Assembly: GCA_017303795.1 (NCBI GenBank)
Contig: JAFLBR010000011.1
Span: 30,166-94,165, forward strand
Direction: 5' to 3'
Length of the DNA: 64,000 nucleotides
Source: Cytophagales bacterium
GTDB taxonomy: Bacteria; Bacteroidota; Bacteroidia; Cytophagales; Cyclobacteriaceae
Part shown: piece by piece, positions 17,108 to 45,421 of the stretch
Position numbering within the stretch: position 1 is the first letter of the stretch
How the letters are laid out: every line of letters begins with the position of its first letter
Translations under genes and position numbers: made by a program
Notes under the pieces: generated by a model
Database searches by the model: none
The model's input: only the letters and a program-made list of their open reading frames with translations
What the model was told of the DNA's origin: nothing

Positions 17108-17181
17108 CCAATCCTCAATGCCAATTACCCAATGCCTGATACCCCAATCCCTAATGCCTAATTCCCTTCTTCCCAATCCCC
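17108..17181. repeat. Degenerate 7-base tandem repeat between Uma2 gene and ileS
   Basis: Reading in steps of seven gives units such as CCAATCC, TCAATGC, CAATTAC, CCAATGC, then CTGATAC, CCCAATC, CCTAATG, CCTAATT. About ten units are related to a (C/T)CAATNC word. The repeat fills most of the gap between the two divergent genes and ends about 20 bases before the probable ileS promoter. It contains no open frame of interest. The same 7-base period recurs elsewhere in this window. Confidence 0.65.
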
Positions 17182-17217
17182 AAAATGTCCTAAATTGCGG
17201 CCTTATTTTGGGTAACC

Positions 17218-20200
17218 GTGAGTAAATACAGAGAAACAAAAGACCTTAATCTGGCCCTTGTGGCCACTGAAATACTCGAATTCTGGAAAAAAGAGAAAAT
17301 TTTTGAGAAGTCGGTAAGCGTGCGCGAAGGTGCCGAGACTTTTACCTTCTATGAAGGCCCGCCATCGGCCAACGGAACACCAGGTATTCACCACGTAATG
17401 GCCCGCACGGTAAAAGATATTTTCTGCCGCTTTAAAACGTTGCAAGGCTACCAGGTAAAACGCAAAGGTGGCTGGGATACACACGGCCTGCCGGTAGAGC
17501 TACAAGTTGAAAAGGAGCTCGGCATTACCAAAGACGATATCGGTAAGAAAATCTCTATTGAAGACTATAACAAGAAGTGCCGCGAAACGGTGATGAAGTA
17601 TAAGGATCAATGGGATGACCTGACCACTAAAATGGGGTATTGGGTTGACCTTGAAAATCCGTACATCACATACAAGAAAGAATACATTGAATCGCTGTGG
17701 TGGATATTGAAGCAATTGTACGATAAACAATTGTTGTATAAAGGTTATACTATTCAACCATACTCACCGGCAGCGGGCACCGGGTTAAGTTCGCACGAGT
17801 TGAATTTACCCGGCACTTACAAAGATGTAAAAGATACCACCGTTGTAGCGCAGTTTAAAGTGAAGCGCGATGCGAAGTCGGAGTTTTTATCAAATACAGA
17901 CAAAGAAACATTTATTCTTGCCTGGACAACTACCCCGTGGACGCTTCCATCGAACACGGCTTTAGCAGTTGGTGAGAAGATTAAATATGTTCAGGTTAAT
18001 ACGTTTAATCCTTATACTCTCCAGCCAGTTAGTGTAGTGTTGGCTAAAGACCTTCTTGGCAAATATTTTTCCGACAAGAATAAAGATTTGAAGCTGGAAG
18101 ATTATAAAGCGGGTGATAAAGCAATTCCATTCGCAATTGTGCAGGAGTTTACCGGTAAACAATTGCTGGGTATAAGCTACGAACAACTAATGCCATACAT
18201 TCAACCGTTCTACGATGCTGACAAAGCGTTTCAGGTAATTGCCGGAGATTTTGTTACTACCGAAGATGGAACGGGTGTGGTGCACATTTCGCCAACCTTT
18301 GGTGCCGATGACTTTCGTGCGGCTAAACAAAATGGAGTACCCGCACTTACTATTAAAGACGAAGGCGGCAATGAAGTACCAACCGTTGACCGCAAAGGAA
18401 AATTTATTAACCAGATTGGTGAAGGTTTAAAAGCCGGTGTGGCCAAGTACAACATCAAAACACACAAGTCGCTTGGTGCAGATGATTTTTACGTAAAGAA
18501 TTATACTAACGAAGATGAGAGCCACGCGGATTATAAAAATACCGATGTCATCATCTCTATTATTCTGAAAGAAGAAAACAAAGCTTTTAAAGTAGAGAAG
18601 TACGAACATACTTATCCGCATTGCTGGCGTACCGATAAGCCCGTGTTGTATTATCCGCTGGATAGTTGGTTCATCAAAACTACCGCGTTGAAAGACAAAA
18701 TGGTTGCGCTGAACAAAACCATTAACTGGAAACCGGAAAGTACGGGCACCGGTCGTTTTGGTAACTGGTTAGAAAATCTGGTGGACTGGAACTTGTCGCG
18801 CTCGCGCTATTGGGGAACACCACTTCCAATCTGGCGCACTAAAGATGGTAAAGAGGAAATTTGTATTGGTTCGCAGGCTGAGCTTAAAGCAGAAGTAGAG
18901 AAGTCGGTGAAGGCGGGTCTTATGCAAGCAGCAATGGTCCATGGTCCATGGTCCATGGACTTGCACCGCCCGTATGTTGATGAAATTATTCTGGTAAGCA
19001 GCAAAGGCGAACCGATGTATCGCGAAGCTGACCTGATTGATGTGTGGTTCGATAGTGGCGCCATGCCGTATGCACAGTGGCATTTTCCATTCGAGAATAA
19101 AGATATTTTTGAAAAGAGTTACCCGGCTGATTTTATTGCCGAAGGTGTGGATCAAACCCGTGGTTGGTTTTTTACTTTGCACGCCATTGCAGTGATGCTA
19201 AGCGAAAGCAGTGACGAAATAAAAGCGGTTAACAAGAGAGTGGGTAATGGTGGAGTTTCATTTAAAAATGTAATCTCCAATGGCTTGGTGCTTGATAAGA
19301 GCGGTAACAAAATGAGCAAGAGCAAAGGCAACGTAGTAAATCCATTCGATGCCCTTGCTAAATATGGCCCCGATGTAGTGCGATGGTATATGATGGAGAA
19401 CGCACCACCGTGGGATAACCTTAAGTTCGATTTTGCCGGAGTAGAGGAAACACAACGCAGGTTCTTCGGAACTCTCATCAATACGTATTCATTCTTTGTG
19501 TTGTATGCCAACATTGATGGTTTTGTAAAAGATGAAATGAACAATGTTCCGTTCGATGAATTGTCTCCACTTGATAAATGGATCATCACCAAAGAGCAAT
19601 CGCTTATTGAAGAAGTGATTGCTGCGTATGCGGATTATGAACCTACCAAAGCTGCGCGCGCTATTCAGGAATTTGTAAACGATCATTTATCCAACTGGTA
19701 TGTTCGCTTAAATCGCAAACGTTTCTGGCAACCATCCTCCGCTAAAGCTTCGGATGGCAAGCCAGCATCCGCTAAAGTTTTTGATGGCGCGCCTGTTGAA
19801 CTTTCGTTAGATAAAAAAGCGGCTTACGAAACTTTGTACGAATGTTTGATGGTAACGGCCCAGTTAATGGCGCCTATCGCTCCATTCTTCAGCGAGTGGT
19901 TGTACAAAAACTTAACAGATAATATTCGCCAGAAGGCAAAACAGTTTAATACCCCTTTAAAGTACGAATCTGTTCATCACACACTGTTAACAAAACCTGA
20001 AGGAAACCGCAAGGATGAAGAGTTAGAGAAGTCGATGGACTATGCGCAACGCATTTGTTCTTTGGTACACTCGCTTCGCAAAAACAGTAAAGTAAAAGTG
20101 CGCACCCCGCTGCAAAAGGTATTGTTGCCGGTGTTGGACGAAAAATTTGCAGCGCGTGTAAAAAGTGTGGAGGCGATTATCAAAGCAGAAGTAAACGTAA

Positions 20201-20751
20201 AAGAGATTCAGTACATAGACGATGCTTCGGGGCTGTTGGTAAAAAAAGTAAAACCCAACTTTGCCAAACTGGGTAAACAGTACGGTTCTAAAATGAAAGA
20301 GGTTTCGGCTGTGATCAATACTTTTAATCAAGCCGATATTCAAGCAATTGAAAAGCAAGGGAAACTAAGCAAAGATGGATTTGATCTGGTGTTAGATGAT
20401 GTTCTTATTTCTTCAGAAGACATTCCAGGTTGGTCGGTAGCCTCTGAAAATGGTTTAACCGTTGCATTGGATATTACGTTAACGGATGAGTTGAAGCGCG
20501 AAGGCATTGCCCGCGATTTTGTAAACCGCGTACAAAACCTGCGTAAGGATATGGGCCTTGAAGTATTGGATAAAATTTCGATTGAGGTTGAGAATAATGG
20601 TGAGTTTGTTACTGCCGCTTTGGCAGAACATCAAGCCTACATCCAAACCGAGACGCAGGCACTTTTCATGGAGTTGAAAGAAAAAGTATCTGATTCCACG
20701 GAAGTGGAAATGGACGAGTACAATATTAAGTTGAAGATTTCAGTAAACTGA
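17218..20751 (+). CDS. ileS: Isoleucyl-tRNA synthetase, eukaryote-like (IleRS2-type)
   Basis: The 1177-residue class I synthetase charges tRNA-Ile and edits valine. The HIGH signature is written as GTPGIHHVMAR with GIHH at residues 56-59, the swapped G-x-H-H form known from IleRS2, the group linked to mupirocin resistance. NKMSKSKGN is at 697-705. The editing domain lies about 220-450 (TTPWTLPSNTALAV; GTGVVHISPTFGADD). The anticodon-binding region follows about residue 740. The start is GTG at 17218; no upstream ATG fits. Two stretches interrupt conserved blocks and are absent from typical family members: MVHGPWSMD at 573-581, from a 7-base repeat, and a segment near 839-860 from another repeat. 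lspA follows 15 bases downstream. Confidence 0.97.
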   Translation: MSKYRETKDLNLALVATEILEFWKKEKIFEKSVSVREGAETFTFYEGPPSANGTPGIHHVMARTVKDIFCRFKTLQGYQVKRKGGWDTHGLPVELQVEKELGITKDDIGKKISIEDYNKKCRETVMKYKDQWDDLTTKMGYWVDLENPYITYKKEYIESLWWILKQLYDKQLLYKGYTIQPYSPAAGTGLSSHELNLPGTYKDVKDTTVVAQFKVKRDAKSEFLSNTDKETFILAWTTTPWTLPSNTALAVGEKIKYVQVNTFNPYTLQPVSVVLAKDLLGKYFSDKNKDLKLEDYKAGDKAIPFAIVQEFTGKQLLGISYEQLMPYIQPFYDADKAFQVIAGDFVTTEDGTGVVHISPTFGADDFRAAKQNGVPALTIKDEGGNEVPTVDRKGKFINQIGEGLKAGVAKYNIKTHKSLGADDFYVKNYTNEDESHADYKNTDVIISIILKEENKAFKVEKYEHTYPHCWRTDKPVLYYPLDSWFIKTTALKDKMVALNKTINWKPESTGTGRFGNWLENLVDWNLSRSRYWGTPLPIWRTKDGKEEICIGSQAELKAEVEKSVKAGLMQAAMVHGPWSMDLHRPYVDEIILVSSKGEPMYREADLIDVWFDSGAMPYAQWHFPFENKDIFEKSYPADFIAEGVDQTRGWFFTLHAIAVMLSESSDEIKAVNKRVGNGGVSFKNVISNGLVLDKSGNKMSKSKGNVVNPFDALAKYGPDVVRWYMMENAPPWDNLKFDFAGVEETQRRFFGTLINTYSFFVLYANIDGFVKDEMNNVPFDELSPLDKWIITKEQSLIEEVIAAYADYEPTKAARAIQEFVNDHLSNWYVRLNRKRFWQPSSAKASDGKPASAKVFDGAPVELSLDKKAAYETLYECLMVTAQLMAPIAPFFSEWLYKNLTDNIRQKAKQFNTPLKYESVHHTLLTKPEGNRKDEELEKSMDYAQRICSLVHSLRKNSKVKVRTPLQKVLLPVLDEKFAARVKSVEAIIKAEVNVKEIQYIDDASGLLVKKVKPNFAKLGKQYGSKMKEVSAVINTFNQADIQAIEKQGKLSKDGFDLVLDDVLISSEDIPGWSVASENGLTVALDITLTDELKREGIARDFVNRVQNLRKDMGLEVLDKISIEVENNGEFVTAALAEHQAYIQTETQALFMELKEKVSDSTEVEMDEYNIKLKISVN
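18934..18960 (+). repeat. Exact 7-base tandem repeat inside ileS
   Basis: Three perfect copies of ATGGTCC (18934-18954) are followed by a partial fourth, ATGGAC. Translated in frame it gives MVHGPWSMD just before the conserved LHRPYVDEI. The unit is nearly self-complementary (CCATGG cores). Three units equal 21 bases, so gain or loss of three keeps the ileS frame while other changes break it. Confidence 0.8.
19732..19787 (+). repeat. Repeat-like in-frame insertion in ileS (two related units)
   Basis: Two related units lie side by side. The first runs CCATCC (19732) through TCCGCTAAAGCTTCGG to GGATGG (ending 19757). The second is CATCCGCTAAAG...GATGG (19766-19786). Their shared core is TCCGCTAAAG(C/T)TT and the first unit has complementary ends, CCATCC/GGATGG. 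Both translate in frame as SAKASDG and SAKVFDG in a surface region between RFWQPS and the helix LDKKAAYETLYECL, where typical synthetases have only a few residues. It resembles an in-frame palindromic element. Confidence 0.65.
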
Positions 20752-20766
20752 CGAGAAAAGATTCTG

Positions 20767-21435
20767 ATGAAGTACGCAAAGTATTTTTTAATTGCACTGG
20801 TGGTAATAGCCATTGATCAAACCAGTAAGTTGTTGGTGTACCATAATATGTATATCCACCAGGAAATAAATGTGCTGGGTACCTGGTTCCGCTTGCATTA
20901 TTTACTAAACCCCGGAATGGCGTTTGGCATTAGGTGGGAGAGTGAGTTTGGTAAACTGGCGCTAACTATTTTTCGGATTTGCGCCATGGTTGGGATTAGT
21001 TACTACATGGTGAAGATGGTACAGAAAAGTGCGCACACCGGTTTTCTGATTTGTCTTGCGCTGATTCTGGGTGGCGCAATCGGTAATGTAATTGACAGTA
21101 CTTTTTATGGTGTGTATTTAAACAACGCACCATTAGGTGTACCTACTCCTTGGTTTCATGGGCAGGTTATTGATATGTTATATTTCCCCTTGTTCCATTT
21201 TCAATGGCCCGCGTGGGTGCCGGGTGTGGGTGGCAATTACTTTGAGTTTTTTAGCCCGGTGTTTAACATTGCCGATTCGTCTATATTTATTGGCGTAGTG
21301 ATTATTCTGTTTTCGCAGAAACGATTTTTCAAAGAAGAGTTGAAGGAAACCGAACCAACTTCAGGACCTAATCAGATTCTGACTTCGGAGCCTGCTGCAA
21401 CTGGTACGGAGAATTCTTCAGCACCGGTTGAATAA
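20767..21435 (+). CDS. lspA: Lipoprotein signal peptidase II
   Basis: The 222-residue inner-membrane aspartic protease cleaves signal peptides from diacylated prolipoproteins; this window encodes at least five lipoprotein substrates. Visible motifs are IDQTSKLLV in helix 1, LLNPGMAFG, GGAIGNVIDS, and the two catalytic aspartates in VIDML (Asp136) and FNIADSSIF (Asp170). The spacing between the catalytic Asp residues is about 33 instead of the usual near-20; an insertion rich in Trp/Phe (FHFQWPAWVPGVGGNYFEFF) fills it, as in other Bacteroidota. A hydrophilic tail of about 35 residues follows the last helix. It lies 15 bases after ileS, the order common in many bacteria. Confidence 0.96.
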   Translation: MKYAKYFLIALVVIAIDQTSKLLVYHNMYIHQEINVLGTWFRLHYLLNPGMAFGIRWESEFGKLALTIFRICAMVGISYYMVKMVQKSAHTGFLICLALILGGAIGNVIDSTFYGVYLNNAPLGVPTPWFHGQVIDMLYFPLFHFQWPAWVPGVGGNYFEFFSPVFNIADSSIFIGVVIILFSQKRFFKEELKETEPTSGPNQILTSEPAATGTENSSAPVE

Positions 21436-21508
21436 TTTTTATGCCGATGGCAGATGGTAATTATGCCAATGGGTTGTTATTGTGCGCAGATAAAACGACC
21501 TTTTCTCT

Positions 21509-23035
21509 ATGAAGAAAGCATCAGCCAAACGTATTCCGAAAGAGATTCTCGATTTGATTCGCGAGCAACTTGCACGCACTGGTTTTCACGAATCGGTTGG
21601 TACCGGACGCTGGAGTTTTATCCATGGCTTGCAGAAGGCAGTTAAAGATTTTGTAAAAAGTACTTCTTCACTCGATCCGCAACTATCACTGGCTTATCCG
21701 CAAGGGCCATCAGAAGATTTGTTGCGCAGAGCATTTAATTTAAAGAGTCCGCCAGGAGCAACCCAATCGCTACGCAATTTACTGGCCCTGTTTGCCACAC
21801 AAAATCAGCACGACTGGAACACTTTGATTAATGATCGCTTTGCAGATAAATTCAAAACCCTGTTGGATGCTGGCGATGAAGATGCTGTAGAGCAAGAACC
21901 CGCAAAAGCAATTGACACCGATAATGTAGATTCGTTTGCTGCGAAAATAGCTAATGTGCTGTTGGAAAAACTCTCGAAGAAAGAGTTAGACCTGATCAAA
22001 GAGCAGATGGATGATGAGCAGGCTCGCACCAACGAAGATATGATTGACGGATTGTATGTGCCTTCACTCAACGATCCATCCAAACCTGAATTTCCTCCGC
22101 GTCCGTTTTATGAACCACGCTTTCCGGCATCCAATACGTTCAGAATTGATGTTCCGGGGTTCACCAATGTTTGGTTGAAAGATGAAAGCACCAATCCAAC
22201 AGGTACACACAAAGCCCGCATGGCATGGGAGGTCTTGATTAAATCGAAACGGTATAACATCAAAGAAGTATCCATTATTTCATCGGGAAGTGCTGCAGCA
22301 GCCATTCAACATTTTTTCAATTTGTATAAGGTAAATACCAAATTGAAAGTGTTGATGGATAATCGCATCAGCGCAAACATTAAGGAATCGTTGCGGCAAA
22401 TGGGTTGCGAGGTGTATGAAACAGATTTAAGTGCTCAATCCCTTACGGGGAAAGAAATTAAAGAACTAACCAACAACAAGGAAGGTATTGATATTACGTA
22501 TCGCGAAATTCTGGATCGGTTTAATGATAATTATTATGACTGGCTTTCGTACGAAGTGCTGAATGAAAATCCGGCTTATTGTTTTGTGCCTTTTGGTACA
22601 GGCGATTTGTTTGTGAATATTTTAATTATTGCCGAACGTGAATTCAACAACAGTATTTACAAACACGATCCACGTTTTCTGGGTGACATTAAAAAAATTA
22701 ACGACTGTAATTTTTTAGGGGCTACTACCCGCGATGCCAACTCACGATTAGATAAACTGTTTTCGTATTACCTGCCTTCACTCGATGATTATCAGTTTTA
22801 TATTAATTCACTCATTCAGAACGAACGCATCGGCAACCTTTCAGGGATATTGGATGTGGATGAAAATTTTGTGGAGGAAGCCTTGGAGATAGCAAAGAAA
22901 CATTCTATTCGTTGCGAGCCTTCGGGTGTGGCCGGGCTTGCCTTGTTATTGCAGATGCGTGATGAAGTTCCAAAAGATGAAAAAATTCTGATCATCAATA
23001 CGGGGTCAACGATTTATCCGGGGAAGATTGGTTAG
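21509..23035 (+). CDS. Fold-type II PLP-dependent enzyme with N-terminal extension
   Basis: Residues about 195-505 form a tryptophan-synthase-beta/threonine-synthase-like domain. The PLP lysine is in VWLKDESTNPTGTHKARMAW, the phosphate loop is SSGSAAAAIQHFF, and GTGDLFVN and INTGSTIYPGK occupy the usual later positions. The first 190 residues are unfamiliar, mostly helical and acidic. Threonine synthase, threonine dehydratase and cysteine synthase are relatives, but the loop differs (SGSAAAA, not SGNAA) and no biosynthetic neighbours are present, so the reaction is not assigned. The 73-base gap after lspA makes cotranscription possible. Confidence 0.75.
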   Translation: MKKASAKRIPKEILDLIREQLARTGFHESVGTGRWSFIHGLQKAVKDFVKSTSSLDPQLSLAYPQGPSEDLLRRAFNLKSPPGATQSLRNLLALFATQNQHDWNTLINDRFADKFKTLLDAGDEDAVEQEPAKAIDTDNVDSFAAKIANVLLEKLSKKELDLIKEQMDDEQARTNEDMIDGLYVPSLNDPSKPEFPPRPFYEPRFPASNTFRIDVPGFTNVWLKDESTNPTGTHKARMAWEVLIKSKRYNIKEVSIISSGSAAAAIQHFFNLYKVNTKLKVLMDNRISANIKESLRQMGCEVYETDLSAQSLTGKEIKELTNNKEGIDITYREILDRFNDNYYDWLSYEVLNENPAYCFVPFGTGDLFVNILIIAEREFNNSIYKHDPRFLGDIKKINDCNFLGATTRDANSRLDKLFSYYLPSLDDYQFYINSLIQNERIGNLSGILDVDENFVEEALEIAKKHSIRCEPSGVAGLALLLQMRDEVPKDEKILIINTGSTIYPGKIG

Positions 23036-23087
23036 ACTATCTCAAAAACTAAGAGTGATTGTCATGAAGGTCTCGCATAAGGCGGGA

Positions 23088-24905
23088 TCACGGATCATAC
23101 ACCGTAGCCGGTGCCGTTATCAAACTGGTTGGATATTTTATTCGCAGGTTAGCTCTGAATTCAAATCGCCACGGCTCTAATCCTTCCACTGTGGTGGGAT
23201 AATAATATGCCCGCGCTTCTATCGTATTAAAAATCAGGTTTTCATTTCGCGCACGTAGCGCAGCAGAAAAACCCGAATAGAAATTTTGTTTCTGAAACAA
23301 CGCAACATTCTCTTTGGCAAGATACGCCAGATCAATCCGGCCAACGGGCGCAAAATGAAACCCGGCTAGCTTCCACGGTGTAAACACCACCGTTTCGGTA
23401 CGAAAGAATAAGCGCTGCGCACCCCACAAACTATCTGGCCTGAAACCCTGAATGCCATTGGCATCGCGTATGTCCAACAATCTTTTCTGCCCGCGATTCA
23501 CCTGTGTGGCAAAATTAATTTCGGCCTGATGCCTGATTTTTGTTTTGCCCAGAAAATAAAGTCGGCTGTAGCGACTAACACCAAATTGTGCTAACCCATC
23601 TTCAATCAGTTCTTCGCTCCAGTAGTTGCCAAGTTTTACGGTGTACGTATAAAATGTTCCGGTTTCGTTTACCGTGCTCAGGTTAAGTTCAGCGCCCGTA
23701 TAAATTCTTTTTTTATCCAATTCATTTTCCCAGCCACCTGTAAACGAAAGCCGGTAACCATAAGGCACATCTTCCGTTCGGCCAAAGCCTAACACGTAAT
23801 TTGTTTTATAAAAATCTTGCTTAAAAAAAGTTAGCTGCGTTAAAAATGTTGTACGATTGGAATACACTAACCGATCGTTATCCGAAATGATGTCTGGTTT
23901 TTTCAAAAAGCGTTCCTCAAACGCTCGCATGGCAATAAACCTTCGATTACGATTTTCCGCCAGTGCGTTCGGCAGCTTTTTAAATCCAAACGAATAGCCG
24001 ACCCATGCATCGTGTATCAGGTATTCATACTTTGCAAAATCAGAACCTTCTTTGTTCATCGTGTTGGTTGACCAGTTGCGACTGATTTCCGCAGCACCCG
24101 CCCAACGCACAAACGGATGAAACAACGGTCGGTCTAACCGAAAAAAATACGCACTTTCATTTTCGTTGCCTACGCTGCGGCCCGTGTTTATTTCTGTATA
24201 ACCCGCAGACGCGTTTACAAAACTTCCAAACAAATTGGTTTTACCATACAGGTATTCATAACCCGCTGTGGGGTTTCGTTCTGCATCATACACACCCGAA
24301 ACCTGCAGCCGCTGGCCCATGCCTCCCAGGTTGGCTTCTTGTATGCGAAACCGATGCTCTGTAATTCCGCGTGGCGAAACCGATGCGCCCAAACTAAACA
24401 CATCGCGTGTCATTACCAGCAAGTCAATCGAGTCGCTGTCTTCCGAAATCGGAGCTACAAAAATTTTAGAGTCGAGAATAAAATCAAGGTCGCGCAGGTA
24501 GCGTTCGTTATCGGCTGCGCGATACGGATTAAACGGTTTGCCTTCGCGTAAAAAAATATTTTCGCGCACCACCCACTCTTTGGTGTTGTTGTGTAGCCGG
24601 TTGGCAAGCCGCGCAACTGACGAGCGGAACCTGCGCGTAGTATCTTGCACGGTGCGGTCGAAGCCAATCCGGTTTACAATAATATGACGGATAATTTTTC
24701 CTTCGTAAGGCAAAAACGCGTCTTCACTTTTTATGGTAACAACGGTATCGGCTTTTGGCGTGCGCCTAATTGCCCCCACCACCTGCTTTGTTACTTTGTT
24801 TTGTTTTAGCTGATCAATTTTTTTAGTGCGGGTGGTATCCTGCCCAAAGAGCATTATGGGTAGCCACAGAAAAAACACAAATCCAATCCGCACACCCATT
24901 TCCAT
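23088..24905 (-). CDS. Omp85-like outer-membrane barrel protein with N-terminal POTRA-like domain
   Basis: The 605-residue protein has a signal peptide (VRIGFVFFLWLPIMLFGQ). A POTRA-like unit at about 65-165 follows (GKIIRHIIVNRIGFDRTVQ, then the typical REGKPFNPYRAADNERYLRD and a strand ending LLVMTRDVFS). About 430 residues of alternating aromatic/polar strands fitting a barrel come next, ending in LRIKYPTSL. Relatives are BamA/TamA-like surface antigens. It is too short in POTRA count to be BamA itself; a lipid or protein secretion role is only inferred. It runs towards the PLP-enzyme gene, with 52 bases between stop codons. Confidence 0.78.
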   Translation of the reverse strand: MEMGVRIGFVFFLWLPIMLFGQDTTRTKKIDQLKQNKVTKQVVGAIRRTPKADTVVTIKSEDAFLPYEGKIIRHIIVNRIGFDRTVQDTTRRFRSSVARLANRLHNNTKEWVVRENIFLREGKPFNPYRAADNERYLRDLDFILDSKIFVAPISEDSDSIDLLVMTRDVFSLGASVSPRGITEHRFRIQEANLGGMGQRLQVSGVYDAERNPTAGYEYLYGKTNLFGSFVNASAGYTEINTGRSVGNENESAYFFRLDRPLFHPFVRWAGAAEISRNWSTNTMNKEGSDFAKYEYLIHDAWVGYSFGFKKLPNALAENRNRRFIAMRAFEERFLKKPDIISDNDRLVYSNRTTFLTQLTFFKQDFYKTNYVLGFGRTEDVPYGYRLSFTGGWENELDKKRIYTGAELNLSTVNETGTFYTYTVKLGNYWSEELIEDGLAQFGVSRYSRLYFLGKTKIRHQAEINFATQVNRGQKRLLDIRDANGIQGFRPDSLWGAQRLFFRTETVVFTPWKLAGFHFAPVGRIDLAYLAKENVALFQKQNFYSGFSAALRARNENLIFNTIEARAYYYPTTVEGLEPWRFEFRANLRIKYPTSLITAPATVYDP

Positions 24906-24910
24906 AAGCT

Positions 24911-24918
24911 GAAAAATA
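24911..24918 (-). promoter_or_regulatory. Likely promoter box of the barrel-protein gene
   Basis: On the minus strand TATTTTTC (one mismatch to TAnnTTTG) ends six bases before the ATG at 24905. This is the near-leaderless spacing also seen at glyS and dgt. Confidence 0.4.
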
Positions 24919-24956
24919 GGGATTTTTACTTTTCAAACTGAAGTTAAAATAAATGG

Positions 24957-25078
24957 GCGGCCCCCCGATGCGCACAAGCCAACGCACATGCCTCGGGGCC
25001 GGGCTTTCCGTTGCAAGTCCGGCCACGCGCGAAATGCCTACACGCTTCGGACTTTCCACTGCAATCCCTGGCCGGGGC
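24957..25078. repeat. GC-rich structured intergenic repeat
   Basis: This strongly GC-rich stretch sits between AT-rich flanks. It contains a hairpin CCGGGCTT (24999-25006) / AAGTCCGG (25015-25022). It also contains two direct copies of a 20-base word 48 bases apart, GGGCTTTCCGTTGCAAGTCC at 25001 and GGACTTTCCACTGCAATCCC at 25049, identical in 15 positions. A further pair, GGCCCC at 24959 and GGGGCC at 24995, closes the left side. It carries no plausible gene and separates the barrel-protein gene from an AT-rich accessory gene. Confidence 0.65.
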
Positions 25079-26019: not shown

Positions 26020-26060
26020 AAGCTATAAACACCAAACAAAATAATCATAACTCTGACTCC

Positions 26061-26459: not shown

Positions 26460-26547
26460 CGTTTGCATTCAGGCGTCATGACGGCTGTTTGCTAAGCTTT
26501 AAAGCCGTCTTTCCATTCATAATACCAAACCCTACTTAAGCGCAAAC

Positions 26548-26743
26548 AATCCTGAGCGGGTGTTGACCATAGTCCTCAACCGGAGTTTGAATAATTGATC
26601 TTCTATTGAAAAGAAAAAGCAAGCGAAGGATCTCATTCGGGTTTCGAATAAGCAGATACTCCGCTCTTAGGATTTTGGATTGAAAACCGGTTAGCACTAC
26701 TGATTAGTTTTGATTTAGACTCGTTACACGGTTGCTCAGGATT
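26548..26743. repeat. MITE-like repeat, copy 1
   Basis: First of three tandem copies, period about 267 bases counting the linker. It is framed by AATCCTGAGC (26548-26557) and the complementary GCTCAGGATT (26734-26743). Inside are a degraded hairpin starting AGCGAAGGATCTC and, in its loop, ATTCG/CGAAT. No gene lies in 26460-27500; the region consists of these copies, their 65-70-base linkers and two small palindromes. Confidence 0.75.
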
Positions 26744-26812
26744 GCGGTTAGAGTTTTAGTTTGGAGTAGTTTAGAGTTTTTTGCCCGAAGCCAAATTCTA
26801 CCCAAGCGCAAG

Positions 26813-27015
26813 CAATCCTGAGCGGGTGTTGACTATAGTCCTCAACCGGAGTTTGAATAATTGATCTTCTATTGAAAAGAAAAAGCAAGCGAAGGATCTC
26901 ATTCGGGTTTCTAATAAGGAGATCCTTCGCTCTGAGTATTTTGGATTGAAAACCGGTTTAGCACAACCCTTACTAGTTTTGATTTGGATTCGTTACACGG
27001 GTCGCTCAGGATTGC
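26813..27015. repeat. MITE-like repeat, copy 2 (best preserved)
   Basis: The ends are perfect 13-base inverted repeats: GCAATCCTGAGCG at 26813-26825 and CGCTCAGGATTGC at 27003-27015. An internal perfect 13-base stem, AGCGAAGGATCTC (26888-26900) with GAGATCCTTCGCT (26919-26931), would fold into a hairpin with an 18-base loop. Total length is 203 bases, with no coding capacity. It is nearly identical to copy 1 over long runs. Confidence 0.75.
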
Positions 27016-27081
27016 GGTTAGAGTTTTAGTTTGGAATAGTTTAGAGTTTTTTGCCCGAAGCCAAATTCTACCCAAGCGTAA

Positions 27082-27230
27082 GCAATCCTGAGCGGTGTTG
27101 GCTTTGAACTTCAAACCGCAGTTTGAATAATTGAATTTCTTTTGAAAAGAAAACCAAGCGAAGGATCTCATTCGGGTTTCGAATAAGGGGATTCTTCGCA
27201 CTTCACACAGCCTGCCCCGGCTCAGGATCG
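27082..27230. repeat. MITE-like repeat, copy 3 (internally shortened)
   Basis: It begins with the same 13-base end GCAATCCTGAGCG (27082-27094), keeps the AGCGAAGGATCTC stem region with GATTCTTCGC opposite, then loses the second half of the unit. It ends at GGCTCAGGATCG (27219-27230), an imperfect right end. Length is 149 bases. Confidence 0.65.
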
Positions 27231-38988: not shown

Positions 38989-39014
38989 TCGTTAAATTCT
39001 AATACTTAATTACA

Positions 39015-41591
39015 TTATTCAATTTTTAAAGTTTCGGTTGGGTTTTCCTGAGTTATCCGTTTCATTTGGATACCTACGGTACTTGTCACTATCGCAATCA
39101 GAACAATAAGTGTATAGAAAAAGGGAGCCAAGCCAGAGAATGGAACGGCTACGTAGATTTCATTAATAAACATATTGATAAGCAGATAGCCGGCCGGGCA
39201 GCCAATCAGAAAGGAGACAACAGCTATTCTTACATACTCTTTGCTCATCAAACGGAAGATATGGATCATGTTGGCTCCAAATATTTTCCTGATGCTGAAT
39301 TCTTTTAGCCTTCGCGTAATATTAAATGAGACTAGTCCGTATAGTCCCAGGCCACTGAGCAGCACAGCCACGCATGCTACAAAAATTAATAGCTGAGTGT
39401 TAATGCTGAGATCTTCATTAAAACCTCTGAAGACTTCTTCTTGTTGAAATCCTTCAAAAGGATCGTCTGGAGTGATGGCATTCCAATCATTCTTTGCATC
39501 CTGTATGGTAGCTTCAGATGAACCTGTTTTAACAGATGCACAGATGTAGTTAAATGTTTCTTTCGGAGTAATGGTGAAAAAGGCAGGGGCTGATGAATGA
39601 TAAGCATCGTGGAGAAAATCCTGAACAACCCCTACCACAACATATTTGTTGCTATCTGCTACAAAGGTTTGATTGAGTGGGGCATCCCAACTTAGTAAGT
39701 CTGCAAACGACTGGGTTACGATAGCCGATTCAATTTTGTCTGATTCAATTTGGCTGTCAAAATATCTTCCTACAATAAGTTTTGTATTGATAGTTTCAAG
39801 ATAGTTGAAGCCTGTGCGGTAATGCATGGCATCATAGTTTGTGTGCTGAGCAGTAATGGTTCTCCAGTTGTAGTCCATACCTACATGATCTGTTGTTCCG
39901 GCAAGACTTTTTATTTTTGTATTTGCCTGAAGCTTGTGGTTGAGATAAGCATACTGAGCTGGGGTAGTTGCAAATAGTGCGATTACATCCTGGTGGACGT
40001 ATCCCCAATCTCTGTTTTTAAGATTTAAGGCGTTCTGCACGAAGATAAACGAAGAGACCACAGTAGTTATAGCAAGTATAAACTGCAGGGTGAGTAAGCC
40101 TTTGCTTAATAAGGAGTGATGGCCAAATTGTTGTTTGCCTTTTAGAATCTGTGCGGGAGCAAACGCAGCTACATACAAAGCAGGGTACAAGCCGGATACG
40201 ATACCAACAAAAACAATAAGCCCAAAGAAAAACACCACGCCACTCATCCAACTGCTAAACTGAAACGGCACTTCGATGGGAGTAAGGTTTCTAAAGGCTG
40301 GCAGAAAAAATGCGTATGCCAAAAGTACGCCTGCTACTGTGGCAAGCGTGCAGATAACCAGGTTTTCGGTTAGGAACTGTTGAACGATCTCTCTTTTACT
40401 ACCGCCAATTACTTTTCTGATAGCGATTTCGCGTAACCTCACCGACACTGTTGAAATAGCCACGTTCACGTAGTTAAGGCATGAAACAACAAGAAGTAGA
40501 ATAGAAATAACGCCTAATGCAATAAGGCCAGCCGGATGTGCTCCATGCGAAATCGAATTATTGATTTGCTTGCTGTTTGTGGCAAGTTCAGTGAGTGGCC
40601 TTAGGTTGAACTGATCTACTTTCCAGTTTGGTGAGCTTAGGTTTTGCATATCCTTGTATTTTGCTAGCGACAAGGTCAGATCAGAAGCAGCGTATTGATC
40701 GCCAAGCAGAATAAACGTAGCGGTAGTATTTTTTTGCCAGGCGGGTGCTTCAGCAGTTTGCAGGTGTAAGAAGGAAATAATGAGACCAAAATAAATGGAA
40801 GAGTTAATAGGTTCATTAAATACGGCAATTACTATGAATTCGTCTTTCATGCCGGAACCAAATTTTAATGAGAGTGTTTGGCCTATTGGGTTTTGATCAC
40901 CAAAATATTTTTCGGCTTGTTGCTGGTTTAAGGCAACTGTATTTTTTGATTTGATTTGAGCCAGGTCTCCGCTCACCAAGGCTAACGTAAACAATTGAGC
41001 AAACTCAGGATCAACCAATGAAACCTGTTCATAAAAGGCATCTCCGTTTTTAAAACGAGCCGAAACCATGTCGGAGTGAACACGTGTCATTCCAACAATA
41101 CTTGTTTCTGCTTCTCGCAATGTTGATCCAAGCAAAGATGGTGTATCTCCCCATTCCTGAAGTTCATCGCCTGTTTTTACCAGGCTGGTTATCTGAAAGA
41201 CCCGGTCAGCATTTTTTTGATAGGAGAATGAGTTGAATTGATTTTCAATAAACAAAGCTGATGTAAGCACGATACCGATAGCCACAGCTAATCCAATTAC
41301 ATTGATTGTACTGTTCAGCCTGTGCCGGTTTGCATTCCTTATGCCTGCAAGCAGATAACTATTAACAAGGGTAATATAGCTGGATGCAAAGACCGGTGTT
41401 TTTCTTTGCATGTTGCGTAAACGAAAGAAGCGCAACACATTCCAGATAAATAAAAGATCAGCTTTGCGTTTACTCTTTTTAGCGGTTCGTTCGTACAATT
41501 CATATGCATCCCCCTGAATTTCTTCAAGCAAATCCGCACGGCAATACCACGTCAAGAATTTATCGGCCCATTTGGGAGGAGTATGCTTCAT
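39015..41591 (-). CDS. FtsX/MacB-type permease with N-terminal prefix domain (first of pair)
   Basis: The 858-residue paralogue of the downstream permease has the same layout: prefix domain, two FtsX modules, coupling segments LREIAIRKVIGGSKRE and LKEFSIRKIFGAN, and a final TVGIQMKRITQENPTETLKIE tail. Apart from the prefix domain the two proteins are only moderately similar, mainly in the helices. The ATG shares one base with the PadR stop codon (TAATG), so translation is coupled. The PadR protein probably represses this operon. No ATPase gene is adjacent. A two-permease heterodimer is a reasonable inference. Confidence 0.92.
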   Translation of the reverse strand: MKHTPPKWADKFLTWYCRADLLEEIQGDAYELYERTAKKSKRKADLLFIWNVLRFFRLRNMQRKTPVFASSYITLVNSYLLAGIRNANRHRLNSTINVIGLAVAIGIVLTSALFIENQFNSFSYQKNADRVFQITSLVKTGDELQEWGDTPSLLGSTLREAETSIVGMTRVHSDMVSARFKNGDAFYEQVSLVDPEFAQLFTLALVSGDLAQIKSKNTVALNQQQAEKYFGDQNPIGQTLSLKFGSGMKDEFIVIAVFNEPINSSIYFGLIISFLHLQTAEAPAWQKNTTATFILLGDQYAASDLTLSLAKYKDMQNLSSPNWKVDQFNLRPLTELATNSKQINNSISHGAHPAGLIALGVISILLLVVSCLNYVNVAISTVSVRLREIAIRKVIGGSKREIVQQFLTENLVICTLATVAGVLLAYAFFLPAFRNLTPIEVPFQFSSWMSGVVFFFGLIVFVGIVSGLYPALYVAAFAPAQILKGKQQFGHHSLLSKGLLTLQFILAITTVVSSFIFVQNALNLKNRDWGYVHQDVIALFATTPAQYAYLNHKLQANTKIKSLAGTTDHVGMDYNWRTITAQHTNYDAMHYRTGFNYLETINTKLIVGRYFDSQIESDKIESAIVTQSFADLLSWDAPLNQTFVADSNKYVVVGVVQDFLHDAYHSSAPAFFTITPKETFNYICASVKTGSSEATIQDAKNDWNAITPDDPFEGFQQEEVFRGFNEDLSINTQLLIFVACVAVLLSGLGLYGLVSFNITRRLKEFSIRKIFGANMIHIFRLMSKEYVRIAVVSFLIGCPAGYLLINMFINEIYVAVPFSGLAPFFYTLIVLIAIVTSTVGIQMKRITQENPTETLKIE

Positions 41592-41929
41592 TAGATGTGT
41601 TGAAACTGTAATGCAATACGCGGAATCTGTTTAAACAATGTGTTACGCATTTCGTTGGCTTCTTCCAGCGCACGTTTGCCGGCAGCAGTTAACAGAAAAA
41701 TTCGCTTTCTGCGGCCACCGCGTTCTTCCGTAGGTTCACTCATTTTTGATTTGAGAAACCCTTTTTCTTCTAATCGGGTAAGCACCGCATGTACGGCACT
41801 AATGTTCAGGCTGCGATTAGTTTGTTTTTCAATTTCATCCATTACACCAACTCCGTATGCCTCGGGATATAAAATCCCGACTGTGAGTAATACGAGTTCT
41901 TCCAATTCGCCCAGGTATGTTCCTTTCAT
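41591..41929 (-). CDS. PadR-family transcriptional regulator
   Basis: The 112-residue protein has a winged-helix fold: GELEELVLLTVGILYPEAYGVGVMDEI, then the recognition region NISAVHAVLTRLEEKGFLKS, a wing EERGGRRKRIFLLTAAGKRAL and a C-terminal dimerisation helix. PadR proteins repress adjacent transporter genes and respond to small molecules. It overlaps the first permease start by one base and is the first gene of a PadR-permease-permease operon, a layout often seen with prefix-domain permeases in Bacteroidota and Acidobacteriota. The TAnnTTTG signal upstream is not clear. Confidence 0.92.
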   Translation of the reverse strand: MKGTYLGELEELVLLTVGILYPEAYGVGVMDEIEKQTNRSLNISAVHAVLTRLEEKGFLKSKMSEPTEERGGRRKRIFLLTAAGKRALEEANEMRNTLFKQIPRIALQFQHI

Positions 41930-42037
41930 AGTGATTCAATTACTTCTACAAACGTGAAATTAATCAATATGTTTCATTTTTGTAGAAATAATATAAAAAC
42001 AGTATAAGGGGCACACAACAGTGCGTTTAGCAAGTTC

Positions 42038-43387
42038 CTACAATTGATTTACAATCGCACCAAAATCAAGTGATTGCCAGGTGTTTTCGAGGTTGGATGT
42101 TTTCATCACCGTATCCATAATTTGTTTTTGTTTCTGGCCAATGCGCAGGGCATCGGAGTAACGCATGGTATCCATAAATGTAACCATGGGGTAGAGTGGA
42201 ATCCACTTATCAGGGAATAGCTCGTAAAGTTTGCCTTCAATTTTTTTACGCAACAAAAAATCTGTATCGGCAACCAGATCTCGCATCTCAATAAAATTAT
42301 CAAGCGCTAACTGTGCAATGGCATCGGTATCGGGTTTGCGCAAGGCTTGAAACTCCGGGAGCACCTTGTTCCAGTTATCGTTATGTTGATTTAGTAAATC
42401 GTTTAAGATGCGACAATCTTCAAAGCCTGCATTCATGCCTTGCCCATAAAAGGGAACAATACCATGAGCCGCATCGCCAATCAATAATGTTTTGTTGCGT
42501 ACCCACGGATAACATTTTATTGTTACAAGAGAAGAAGTTGGATTGGTAGCAAAGTCTTCTAACAATTCGGGCATTAGGTGTTGGGCATCGGGGAATGTTT
42601 CCGAGAAAAATTTTTCAACATCTTGTTTGGTCTTTATTGTATTGAAGGATGGATTGCCTTCAAATGGAAAGAACAACGTGCAGGTAAAACTTCCATCCGG
42701 ATTGGGCAACGCAATCATCATAAAACTTTCGCGTGGCCAGATGTGAAGGTGATTTTTTTCTAATTGAAATGAACCTCCCGCTCCGGGCGGAATGTGTAAT
42801 TCTTTATAACCATGATCAATATAATCCTGCTCGTAATCGAAACGATCGGTAAATTGAAATGCGGTGCGCACAGCCGAGAAGGCGCCATCTGCACCGATGA
42901 TGTAATCGAACGAATAGTTACCAGTTTCCGGTTTCTGATTTCTTGTTACTGGCAACTGGTAACTGGCAACCTCTAACGAAGTCTTCTCCAGATCAACTTT
43001 CGTAATACGTTGCTCAAACCGAAACCCAACACCCAATCGCTCCGCTTCATTCATTAACACTACATTCAAACCACTACGCGAAACGGAATTGATAAACTGT
43101 CCTTCTTTTCCATAAGCGAATGAAGAGAGATTGCCTTGCTTATCGTGCATCATGCGCCCGTGCATGGGAATGGCAACTTTTTTTAATTCATCGGCCAGGC
43201 CAACTTCTTTTAATGCACGAATACCGCGGTTGCTTAACGCGAGGTTAATAGAGCGCCCGGCTTCCGCACCTTTTTTGCGCATATCGTTTCTGCGCTCGAA
43301 TACGGTAACGGAATAGCCTCGTTTCTTTAAGTAGATGGATAACAACGAACCAACAAGTCCCGCCCCAACAATGGCTATGTTCTGCAT
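42038..43387 (-). CDS. kmo: Kynurenine 3-monooxygenase
   Basis: The 449-residue FAD enzyme hydroxylates L-kynurenine to 3-hydroxykynurenine with NADPH and O2. FAD motifs are visible: GAGLVGSLLSIYLKKRGYSV at 8-27, GADGAFSAVR near 165-174 and GDAAHGIVPFYGQGMNAGFEDC. AEAGRSINLALSNRG is a signature of the Kmo family. The C-terminus (PDKWIPLYPMVTFMDTMRYSDA) also fits. Residues about 139-159 (VASYQLPVTRNQKPETGN) come from a 7-base-periodic repeat inserted in frame before FDYIIGADG, absent from typical homologues. kynU lies upstream, 185 bases away, with a palindromic repeat between. Confidence 0.95.
   Translation of the reverse strand: MQNIAIVGAGLVGSLLSIYLKKRGYSVTVFERRNDMRKKGAEAGRSINLALSNRGIRALKEVGLADELKKVAIPMHGRMMHDKQGNLSSFAYGKEGQFINSVSRSGLNVVLMNEAERLGVGFRFEQRITKVDLEKTSLEVASYQLPVTRNQKPETGNYSFDYIIGADGAFSAVRTAFQFTDRFDYEQDYIDHGYKELHIPPGAGGSFQLEKNHLHIWPRESFMMIALPNPDGSFTCTLFFPFEGNPSFNTIKTKQDVEKFFSETFPDAQHLMPELLEDFATNPTSSLVTIKCYPWVRNKTLLIGDAAHGIVPFYGQGMNAGFEDCRILNDLLNQHNDNWNKVLPEFQALRKPDTDAIAQLALDNFIEMRDLVADTDFLLRKKIEGKLYELFPDKWIPLYPMVTFMDTMRYSDALRIGQKQKQIMDTVMKTSNLENTWQSLDFGAIVNQL
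42916..42978. repeat. 7-base-periodic repeat inserted in kmo
   Basis: Nine consecutive 7-base steps on the plus strand read AGTTACC, AGTTTCC, GGTTTCT, then GATTTCT, TGTTACT, GGCAACT, and GGTAACT, GGCAACC, TCTAACG. Nine units are 63 bases, or 21 codons, so the reading frame of kmo is preserved. On the coding strand it gives a polar peptide rich in Gln, Pro, Thr and Asn. Confidence 0.75.
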
Positions 43388-43472
43388 AAAAGAATCTTTT
43401 AACTAAAGCTCGAAATTAGGAGTTTTTGGAATGAGCAAGACATTGTCGGAGGTTAAAATTACGACTGTTACG

Positions 43473-43531
43473 TTACGAAGATTACGTTACGAAGTTTACG
43501 TTACGAAGTTTACGTAACGTAATCTTCGTAA
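43473..43531. repeat. 14-base direct repeats with a perfect 19-base inverted repeat between kynU and kmo
   Basis: The word GTTACGAAG(A/T)TTAC, 14 bases, recurs from 43472 in tandem (GTTACGA at 43472, 43486, 43500). The outer parts form a perfect inverted repeat: the arm 43473-43491, containing ACGAAGATTACGTTACG, is the exact complement of 43513-43531, with a 21-base loop. Because kynU is upstream of kmo on the minus strand, the hairpin lies in their shared transcript, as a possible attenuator, terminator or RNA-stability element. It also has the 7-base period seen in other repeats here. Confidence 0.8.
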
Positions 43532-43572
43532 TAGCTGCATGTTCCTTAACATCGTTAAAGGGTGAATGAATT

Positions 43573-44844
43573 TTACCTTATTAAGGCATTCTTAAAAATC
43601 TCCACAAACCGAAAAACATCTTCAAAAGTATTATACAGCGGCACGGGCGCAACACGAATCACATTAGGTTCGCGCCAGTCGGCAATTACACCCGCTTTGG
43701 TTAACGCATCAAAAACTTTTTTGCCTTTCTGTTTCATAAAAATAGAAAGCTGGCAACCGCGCGCGCGTTTGTCTGAAGGAGTGAGGATTGCAAATTTTTC
43801 TTCAGCTGCATCAATCTGGCTGAGCAGGTATTTCAGATAACCGGTTAACAACAAACTTTTAGCGTGAAGATTTTTTAATCCGGCTTGTTGAAATATTTCT
43901 AATGAAGCCAACAAGGCAGCGGCCGGTAGTACCGGATGATTTGATAATTGCCAACTATCAATTCCAGCCATAGCTATAAAACCTTTCTTCATTTGAAACC
44001 GATCTTTTTCATGATGCCCCCACCAGCCAGCAAAGCGAGGTAAAGACGCATCGTTCGCGAACCGTTCGTGTACAAAGGCCCCGGCTATGGCACCGGGCCC
44101 GGCATTCAGATATTTATAACTGCACCATACGGCAAAGTCAACATTATCTTTATGCAGATTCAGTTTCACGTTGCCAATGGCATGTGCTAAATCAAATCCC
44201 ACATACGCTCCGGCTGCGTGTGCGGCTTGAGTAATTTTTTTTATATCGAAAAACTGACCGGTGTAATATTGAACGCCACCGAAGATAATCAGTGCCAACT
44301 CATCTTTATGTTTTTCAATAGTGGCCAGAATATCTTCTGTGCGTAAGGTGTGTTCACCCTCGCGAGGTTTTATTTCTACTAAAGTCTTATTGGGATCGAG
44401 TTTGTGATATTTTATCTGCGATTCAAATGCATATTGATCGGAAGAAAATGCACCGGCTTCGGTAATAATCTTAAATCGTTTTTTTGTGGGGCGATAAAAT
44501 GAAACCATCAGCAAATGCAGATTCACCGTAAGGTGATTCATGGCTACTACTTCGGTAGATTTTGCTCCCGTAAGTAAGGCTAATCCTTTCTTCGTGAATT
44601 TATGATAATACAACCACGGCCGTTTTGCATGCACGTGACCTTCTACACCCAATGCAGCCCAATCGTTTAATTCTTCGCTAATAAAATTCTTAGTGGTTTT
44701 AGGTTGAAGCCCCAATGAATTTCCAGTAAAGTAAATGGCGGTTTTGCCTTTTACTTTTGGGAGATGAAATAACGTTCGGAAATTTTTTAAGGGATCGATG
44801 CGATCAAGTTTGCGGGCAAAGGCAAGCGTGGTTTCAAATTGCAT
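43573..44844 (-). CDS. kynU: Kynureninase
   Basis: The 423-residue fold-type I PLP enzyme hydrolyses kynurenine or 3-hydroxykynurenine to anthranilate or 3-hydroxyanthranilate plus alanine. Family features are YFTGNSLGLQPK, HLTVNLHLLMVSF, VGFDLAHAIGNVKLNL (Asp218, His221) and WCSYKYLNAGPGAIAGAF with the PLP lysine Lys244, then RFAGWWGHHEKDRFQM. The length is normal. It follows the methyltransferase gene by 21 bases and precedes kmo, so it belongs to the minus-strand kynurenine operon. With Kmo and HaaO it would yield ring-opened 3-hydroxyanthranilate. Confidence 0.97.
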   Translation of the reverse strand: MQFETTLAFARKLDRIDPLKNFRTLFHLPKVKGKTAIYFTGNSLGLQPKTTKNFISEELNDWAALGVEGHVHAKRPWLYYHKFTKKGLALLTGAKSTEVVAMNHLTVNLHLLMVSFYRPTKKRFKIITEAGAFSSDQYAFESQIKYHKLDPNKTLVEIKPREGEHTLRTEDILATIEKHKDELALIIFGGVQYYTGQFFDIKKITQAAHAAGAYVGFDLAHAIGNVKLNLHKDNVDFAVWCSYKYLNAGPGAIAGAFVHERFANDASLPRFAGWWGHHEKDRFQMKKGFIAMAGIDSWQLSNHPVLPAAALLASLEIFQQAGLKNLHAKSLLLTGYLKYLLSQIDAAEEKFAILTPSDKRARGCQLSIFMKQKGKKVFDALTKAGVIADWREPNVIRVAPVPLYNTFEDVFRFVEIFKNALIR

Positions 44845-44865
44845 GTCGGAAAATTAAGCTATTGT

Positions 44866-45354
44866 TCAGAACAACGAAAGTTGTTTTAACACCGCACCTT
44901 CATGTTCCAACAGCCACTGTTTGTTTTCAAGACCACCCCCATAGCCGGTTAGGTTTCCATTTTTGCCAATTACCCGATGGCAAGGTACTACAATGGCAAT
45001 CGGGTTTTGTCCATTGGCAAGACCCACGGCCCGAATGGATTTAATATCGCCTATGCGAACGGCAAGTTCCTCATACGAGATGGTTGTTCCGTAAGGAATA
45101 TTAATCAACTCGCGCCAAACTTTGTTTTGAAATTCCGTTCCGCGAAAACCAAGATTGAACGTAAAGAACTTGCGACCTTTTAAAAAGTATTCGTCTAACT
45201 CAAGTAAGCATTGTTCAATGGCGGGAGTTAAGTTTTCGGCCCCACAGGCTTCTTTCCAAAAACCAATGCGGGTAATGCTGTCGCCTTCTGATTCAATTAT
45301 CAAATTACCAACGTGCTGATGTTGATAATAGGCTATTCCTTTTTGGGTACTCAT
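44866..45354 (-). CDS. ogt: Methylated-DNA-[protein]-cysteine S-methyltransferase
   Basis: This repair protein takes methyl groups from O6-alkylguanine in DNA onto a cysteine. The active site is PIAIVVPCHRVIGKNGNLTG with the acceptor Cys in PCHRV; FQNKVWRELINIPYGTTISY and RAVGLANGQN complete the DNA-binding and active-site region. It is a single domain of 162 residues without an Ada activator part. A start at ATG 45378 is possible, but the extra MATANFKK would be encoded by the adjacent 7-base repeat, so 45354 (MSTQKG) is preferred. Its place between haaO and kynU is odd for a DNA-repair gene; cotranscription seems likely from the 21-base gap. Confidence 0.92.
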   Translation of the reverse strand: MSTQKGIAYYQHQHVGNLIIESEGDSITRIGFWKEACGAENLTPAIEQCLLELDEYFLKGRKFFTFNLGFRGTEFQNKVWRELINIPYGTTISYEELAVRIGDIKSIRAVGLANGQNPIAIVVPCHRVIGKNGNLTGYGGGLENKQWLLEHEGAVLKQLSLF

Positions 45355-45360
45355 TTTTTT

Positions 45361-45421
45361 GAAGTTGGCAGTAGCCATGTGGTATTTTTTAGCGGTACTG
45401 CTTACTGGTTACTGCCTACTT
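45361..45421. repeat. 7-base-periodic repeat between haaO and ogt
   Basis: Units in step of seven include AGTTGGC, AGTAGCC (45363-45376), then after a short interruption GGTACTG, CTTACTG, GTTACTG, CCTACTT (45394-45421). The words are variants of a TTACTGG-like heptamer also seen inside kmo. It lies just upstream of the ogt start on the minus strand. Confidence 0.6.

Follow-up and report, generated by a model that had tools for sequence, protein, structure and literature searches.

Period-seven repeat tracts of a Cytophagales genome as probable arms of an intervening-sequence-like element at protein-gene junctions

Introduction

A stretch of 64,000 nucleotides from a Cytophagales bacterium of the family Cyclobacteriaceae (GenBank assembly GCA_017303795.1, contig JAFLBR010000011.1; C3:30166-94165 of the 24-contig, 4.87-Mb genome G000), referred to here as the window, has five sites at which degenerate words were reported to follow one another in steps of seven bases. 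The sites are located around the isoleucyl-tRNA synthetase (IleRS) gene and in a kynurenine-pathway gene cluster. In the preliminary description of this DNA the words were seen to differ between sites while the period stayed the same, and a mechanism which fixes spacing was proposed in preference to a transposed repeat. The question is what keeps a spacing when the words are free to change. Our evidence favours origin from an element instead, since at many loci a gene of the PF05635 family (23S rRNA intervening-sequence protein, a four-helix bundle) stands between inverted arms made of such tracts. Probably, though far from certainly, an element resembling the intervening sequences (IVSs) of 23S rRNA sits at junctions between protein genes and has the period-7 tracts as its arms; the tracts of the window would be copies without the gene.

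Published systems are described here from excerpts of the papers cited. Heptamer arrays are reported in these excerpts from cyanobacteria, Xanthomonas, Beggiatoaceae and Bacteroidetes, and their origin is not agreed upon; the examples include TAACTGA (PMC4679880), GGGAATC and GGGGA(C/T)T (PMC4692102) and the heptanucleotides in P6b of the Nostoc tRNA-Leu intron (PMC3488679), and within these three papers Mrazek 2007 and Costa 2002 are cited on such arrays. IVSs of 23S rRNA are described as parasitic stem-loop elements, several of which are cut by RNase III and some of which carry an S23 open reading frame; the Xanthomonas S23 structure is a pentameric ring, and the S23/IVS protein has no known function as described there (PMC4990558).

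Results

Genome-wide excess of period-7 tracts

An 864-kb sample of the genome, consisting of the window, C1 1-400 kb, C20 1-280 kb and C23 1-120 kb, was tested for segments matching at 16 or more of 21 positions at a given lag, and the expectation was taken from an order-3 Markov simulation instead of a codon-aware shuffle. Lag 7 gave 26 segments where 1.7 were expected, and its multiples were also in excess (lag 14, 22 against 1.3; lag 21, 10 against 0.3; lag 28, 8 against 1.7). The remaining lags from 2 to 30 gave 0 to 7 segments, the highest being lags 6 and 17 with 7 each (2.0 and 1.0 expected). When lags 7, 14 and 21 were combined in one score with a threshold of 48, the sample contained 40 tracts against 1.0 in simulations, and 400 kb of the related genome G008 contained 17 against 0 simulated. 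Period-7 tracts are thus real and genome-wide, and the excess for which the preliminary description had proposed a check is present against this Markov control.

A repeated GGTNACTGG pattern was found at 59 places with at most 3 mismatches, compared with 10 for the reversed pattern, and with at most 2 mismatches it occurred in 10 genomes, counting this one, out of 39 searched. A BLAST search of one array against plasmids returned no match, possibly because of repeat filtering. At kynureninase loci of other Bacteroidota (L009-L088) period-8 tracts were as common as period-7 tracts (27 and 24, threshold 48).

Four-helix-bundle genes between inverted heptamer arms

A PF05635 search identified four genes in this genome, all of them outside the window, and none in 14 control genomes; the family is present in 55 of 58 genomes of the genus. 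Each of the four genes is flanked by inverted heptamer tracts, with word families differing from gene to gene. Both arms were above the detector cut-off of 42 for three of them, and the 3' arm of the fourth (L283) scored 39.

We then counted flanking tracts at 33 loci of the genus, 30 of Bacteroidota and 20 on plasmids, a flank being scored when sequence no further than 200 nt from the gene reached a period score of 42 or more, with 100 shuffles for loci and 50 for controls. All loci were cut out for their strongest matches, and weaker PF05635 members are hence under-sampled. The plasmid set consisted of L314 and 19 of 26 further records (18 of the 20 cyanobacterial, the others from Azospirillum and Gemmatirosa); H34 and H40 were omitted as near-copies, as we took them to be, of H33 and H39, and H46-H50 as records with 39-56% of the query matched. 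Period-7 flanks were observed at 26/33 genus, 15/30 Bacteroidota and 15/20 plasmid loci, and period-8 flanks at 1/33, 9/30 and 4/20; one or the other was present at 27/33, 24/30 and 18/20. Period 6 (0/33, 5/30 and 3/20) and period 9 (0/33, 3/30 and 2/20) were rarer, and one Aphanizomenonaceae copy had a 9-base unit. The idea of a fixed period has accordingly to be relaxed: one period with many words does recur across the genome, and relatives have other words at the same positions, but the Bacteroidota loci with period-8 flanks (9 of 30) and the 9-base cyanobacterial case show that it is not absolute.

An inverted match between the two flanks occurred together with period 7 or 8 at 17/33 genus, 14/30 Bacteroidota and 10/20 plasmid loci, and at least one of these features at 29/33, 25/30 and 20/20. 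Among 733 control genes of this genome there were 63 with period 7, 26 with period 6, 16 with period 8, 10 with an inverted match and 3 with both, while 205 genes of cyanobacterial plasmids gave 14 with period 7, 12 with an inverted match and 2 with both. For loci that combined an inverted match with period 7 or 8, the Fisher test against controls gave p 5e-23 (genus) and 1.5e-10 (plasmids). One of the three double-positive control genes of this genome was a GxxExxY gene, to which we return below. A previous count, in which the windows differed slightly, found period-7 flanks at 0/27 loci of kynurenine monooxygenase (KMO) and 9/29 of IleRS, the latter probably because of the tract upstream of the IleRS gene itself. 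Four PF05635 members were met by chance in 3.56 Mb of sequence mostly fetched for other reasons, and three of these had period-7 flanks.

Where the neighbours of PF05635 copies were read, the copies adjoined protein genes and were not in an rRNA helix. On cyanobacterial plasmids, four-helix-bundle genes lay between CRISPR genes (L355, L361, L365; cas6/cas4 twice and cas10/cmr3). In other Bacteroidota, tract-flanked four-helix-bundle genes stood between genes which we take to be nuoC and nuoD, or before a presumed lipoamide dehydrogenase gene (L322, L328, L333, L341). The solved relatives of the PF05635 protein are 2gsc and 2rld, both with five chains.

Tract load and gene number

The relation between tracts and gene was examined in 198 Bacteroidota genomes with an exact pattern, AGT five times at intervals of seven. 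It was present in 127 genomes, compared with 13 for AGT at intervals of six. The pattern occurred in 120/155 genomes with PF05635 and 7/43 without, and by gene number (0, 1, 2-4, 5-7 and at least 8) in 7/43, 24/34, 31/45, 26/34 and 39/42 (Spearman 0.47 with gene count). Within a single family (f28) it was found in 22/31 genomes with the gene and 1/12 without (p 3e-4).

Arm matching and junction states

At five recurrent junctions the arms of one element were compared with arms from the same junction in other genomes. The median match between an element's own arms was 26 (39 elements) and that of cross pairs 17 (344 pairs; p 8e-9).

At the junction of the 3-hydroxyacyl-CoA dehydrogenase and thiolase genes, three states were observed. 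Seven spacers, chosen for having no listed PF05635 hit beside thiolase, were read by eye: four had no tract (G016, G022, G023, G056) and three had arms only (G045, G059, G066), and at four further loci (L281, L285, L288, L302) both arms and the PF05635 gene were present. In G024 the copy of the gene beside thiolase has an internal TAA.

Placement and wording of tracts

Of the 40 tracts, 29 were intergenic, 2 were at gene edges and 9 were inside genes called by a simple gene caller; this caller labels 89% of the sequence as coding, yet most tracts fall between genes. Two of the nine in-gene cases look like start-codon miscalls, and many tracts start at a stop codon or finish at a start codon. 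It had been stated earlier that some tracts are intergenic and others in frame in conserved genes, and this holds, the IleRS and KMO tracts being in frame. In the KMO loop before the IIGADG stretch, 14 of the 28 genus genomes whose loop was read had a lag-7 match of at least 15/21, the highest value at any other lag being 13, and the words varied widely (CCAGTTA, CAACATT, CGAACCT, AGTCTTT). Likewise the IleRS site of the window had other words in six (G008, G009, G018, G020, G046, G049) among 30 loci scanned. Two kynureninase loci (L053, L059) have heptamer tracts with different words at apparently one site.

Within the genome, words were more alike than by chance (mean 2.877 against 2.724, sd 0.009). 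They were also alike between this genome and G008, G013 and G020, and hardly so for G055. Sharing of words between different phyla was slight for Nostocales (2.818 against 2.770, sd 0.023) and not supported for Kovacikia (2.511 against 2.505, sd 0.008).

The change of tracts between near relatives was modest. G013 and G024, aligned over 151 kb at 94.5% identity, have seven tracts each, of which six could be aligned: three were unchanged, one was substituted, one was rewritten, and one was one unit apart (a 6-base gap). Copy number, suggested earlier as a quantity to compare between strains, may differ in one of these cases, and none of the six had a gap of exactly 7.

General selection for hairpins in all tracts was rejected, as the mean z of G000 tracts was only -0.63 against column-preserving shuffles, with 12% of 40 at p of at most 0.05; this weak shift in the mean indicates that only a subset of tracts are strong hairpins. 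Three adjacent junctions in G000 (C1:157950-158069, 164452-164575 and 164982-165136) have one layout, a CTGG tract, a core of about 25 bases and a GATTACC tract.

The five sites of the window

Positions of the five sites are given in Table 1. The combined score recovered three of them (17106-17151, 18921-18975 and 42912-42983), and to this extent the five sites with a 7-base step stand. At the other two the step is not the main feature: the unit at 43459-43531 is 14 bases (TTACGTTACGAAGA, 3.7 copies) and the tract folds into a long hairpin, and 45361-45421 has 3.6 imperfect 7-base copies (score 36) and is chiefly an inverted repeat, which overlaps the first codons of the O6-methylguanine methyltransferase gene. 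Under the strict single-lag test there were 2 period-7 segments in the window against 0.06 expected, and only 18934-18960 and 42916-42978 passed. Folding relative to mononucleotide shuffles gave z values of -6.2 (45355-45425), -5.3 (43455-43540), -4.0 (KMO) and -2.6 (IleRS), and no fold for the 17100 tract. The spacer which holds this last tract, between the Uma2-family and IleRS genes, has similar words in L212, L215 and L217. We read the tract at 43459..43531 as a gene-less element. An Rfam search of the window gave nothing at gathering scores.

Table 1. Heptamer tracts of the window and the genes in or between which they lie (window coordinates)
Feature	Position	Strand	Location
Degenerate CCNAATN heptamer tract, without hairpin	17106..17181	.	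Between Uma2-family gene (16464-17084, -) and IleRS gene (17218-20751, +)
(ATGGTCC)3.6	18924..18966	+	In frame within IleRS; loop with other heptamer words in six relatives
Quasi-palindromic GTTACCA...CTGGTAAC heptamer tract	42912..42983	-	In frame in KMO gene (42038-43387, -), ahead of FDYIIGADG stretch
14-base (two-heptamer) tract, long hairpin	43459..43531	.	Spacer between KMO and kynureninase (43573-44844) genes
Inverted TTACTGG/CCAGTA-type tract	45361..45421	.	Spacer between genes for 3-hydroxyanthranilate dioxygenase (45428-45958, -) and O6-methylguanine methyltransferase (44866-45378, -)

The best named relatives of the window's kynureninase are from metagenome bins of Cytophagales or Cyclobacteriaceae, at no more than 83% identity. 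Two other repeats were observed in the window, a 266-base unit in tandem at 26538-27199 (2.5 copies, 90% matches) and a 30-base repeat (SAKASDGKPASAKVFDG) in frame in IleRS at 19726-19788, which looks like a further in-frame insert. A relative's IleRS (L347, G001 C16:133280-133790) has an in-frame DUF559-type endonuclease domain insert in an open frame of 1300 aa, matching NF007294 with E 1e-20, under that model's cut-off.

GxxExxY genes as possible second cargo

GxxExxY genes, which belong to the PD-(D/E)XK nuclease family, may be a second cargo of such arms, a lead from few cases. One lies at a gene junction with inverted arms in this genome (C23:104476-104862). Seven plasmids with such genes were found and five fetched; the inverted match score was at least 36 in three (L374, L377, L378) and 22 and 16 in the others. 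The plasmid arms read like GCAGAGGAC with a step of about 9. Automatic period scores were below 42 except for L376, with 45 (period 6) and 42 (period 9), and L376 had no arm match. The 3.56 Mb contained GxxExxY genes at two places, one of them with arms. DUF559 as a further cargo was set aside, having been met at one place in the 3.56 Mb, without arms.

Discussion

Relation to known systems

The element has in common with the 23S rRNA IVSs its protein family, complementary ends around an open reading frame, recurrent insertion sites and sporadic presence (PMC4990558, in excerpt). It differs in being found at junctions between protein genes and in having arms made of tandem 7-base, sometimes 8- or 9-base, repeats. 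Because the protein and the complementary ends are shared and the rRNA location is not, we liken it to IVSs and do not class it as one. As in the heptameric and short tandemly repeated repetitive (STRR) sequences, the unit is 7 bases and the words are degenerate, and the excerpts place such repeats in Bacteroidetes and Cyanobacteria; the tracts described here show the STRR features of a tandem 7-base excess over chance and a mostly intergenic position, the latter also reported for the repeats of PMC4679880 and PMC4692102. According to the same sources, inverted pairs occur in the Xanthomonas repeats as well and a hairpin in the Nostoc intron. The terms four helix, S23 and intervening were absent from PMC4679880 and PMC4692102. 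Heptamer arrays were thus already known. By title or start of abstract, no paper among the matches listed joined the PF05635 family with heptamer arrays, in a search which mostly did not cover subscription journals, so that priority for the link between gene and arrays is not proven.

PF05635 is said to resemble Avd, the accessory protein of diversity-generating retroelements (PMC10053308, in excerpt), and Avd came out as a distant relative of PF05635 here (NCBIfam E 2e-5, below cut-off). Unlike a diversity-generating retroelement, however, this genome has no PF00078 reverse transcriptase match at E 1e-5. For this genome, that result and the differences between copies within a tract also disfavour telomerase-like or retroelement templating. 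Miniature inverted-repeat transposable elements (MITEs) and repetitive extragenic palindromic (REP) elements are short, non-coding, intergenic inverted repeats; in the tracts here, unlike these, the words change from copy to copy.

Alternative explanations

The main rival reverses the relation between gene and tract. Heptamer hairpins would be ordinary slippage products in gaps, and the four-helix-bundle gene would insert into them, by analogy with IVSs which replace rRNA tetraloops. Tracts are indeed far more numerous than PF05635 genes, arms-only junctions exist, and tracts are present in 7 of 43 gene-less genomes and on a Kovacikia plasmid without the gene. If arrays came first, however, it is hard to see why tract load should climb with gene count, why genomes of family f28 without the gene should be nearly free of tracts, or why G016, which has no PF05635 match, should have 0 tracts in 100 kb; we think this order of events unlikely, though it deserves real weight.

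Much less probable, in our estimate, is neutral replication slippage with a polymerase preference for 7 bases and no link to any gene (Mrazek 2007, as cited in excerpts of PMC4679880 and PMC4692102). It would predict neither the PF05635 association nor the inverted matching of arms about 0.4 kb apart, nor the sharing of words within a genome, even if variants are often common to neighbouring copies within tracts (by eye), G013 and G024 differ by one unit at one tract, and period-7 tracts are found in several phyla. Hardly likely at all, and a shade less so than slippage, is a regulatory role, in which tracts at operon junctions and gene starts would serve as binding sites or as RNA stems: the intergenic majority of tracts, the many that abut stop or start codons and the several that fold well are in its favour, but the words at one gene differ between species, tracts also occur in protein loops, and relatives have the same junctions without a tract. 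For TAACTGA, MacGregor reportedly proposed translation control in 2015. The idea that a heptamer with one stop triplet places stops in all three frames was dropped, since coding tracts exist.

Proposed element and points against it

We return to the IVS-like element as the probable source of the tracts. Its order would be the stop codon of the upstream gene, a 5' heptamer arm, the PF05635 gene, a 3' arm which is the reverse complement of words similar to those of the 5' arm, and the start codon of the following gene. Once transcribed, the two arms would pair and leave the small gene in the loop of a long stem, which RNase III may process. Such pairing would hold the two arms of one element matched, and slippage and template switching in a periodic stem would preserve register in whole units only; together these would hold the period while the word drifts between elements. 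Loss of the gene would leave arm-only hairpins or single arms, which is how we interpret the content of the window, and these may persist between genes and within protein loops able to accommodate whole-frame inserts. The element may also be, or have been, mobile.

Several observations weigh against this account. Significant inverted matches were found at only 19/33 genus, 15/30 Bacteroidota and 12/20 plasmid loci and at only one of the four chance-met members, only 11 of 39 elements had own arms that outscored all cross pairs, strong hairpins are a minority among the tracts, and the 17106 tract is without a partner arm. A peptide at C1:205012-205240 was considered as a gene remnant and rejected, no PF05635 match being found. 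The 864-kb sample contained 40 tracts but lacked all four PF05635 genes of the genome. The statistics on 198 genomes ignore phylogeny except within family f28; AGT tracts occur in 7 of 43 gene-less genomes and are absent from 35 of 155 with the gene, and G164 has 158 AGT matches and no PF05635 gene at E 1e-5. In a separate set of 11 genomes gene count and tract density were not significantly related (rho 0.58, p 0.06), and G009 has five PF05635 genes and one tract per 100 kb. In 150 kb of the Kovacikia plasmid there were 9 tracts, yet its entire 1.2 Mb had no PF05635 match (chromosome not searched), and an Anabaena cylindrica plasmid has 2 tracts and no PF05635 match. Lastly, a gene tree built with a quick method from 57 proteins, of which 47 belong to nine junction groups, tracks the junction, with 10 changes against a minimum of 8 and a shuffled mean of 29.4; L295 and L314 were omitted, as were two over-long rows and three unplaced ones, and long-branch rows make parts of this tree unsure. 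The elements would then either have long resided at their sites or reach them by homing, and recent or frequent jumping was not seen.

Implications

A more speculative step, which we regard as rather improbable, is that elements at operon junctions make up a general class, and that the ring formed by their small four-helix-bundle protein recognises its own arms by the pitch of the repeat and not by sequence, with one subunit per 7-base unit. The cargo would then determine the pitch: four-helix-bundle genes would go with about 7 bases and GxxExxY genes, judging from few cases, with about 9. This would account for kept spacing with free words.

If heptamer arrays are the arms of an S23/IVS gene, their odd phylogenetic spread would be explained, many genes which bear no annotation beyond 'four helix bundle protein' would turn out to belong to a single type of element, and the puzzles of the array and of the gene could be tested together in common laboratory strains. 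A further suggestion is that the in-frame heptamer inserts of conserved enzymes may be remnants of such elements rather than adaptations.

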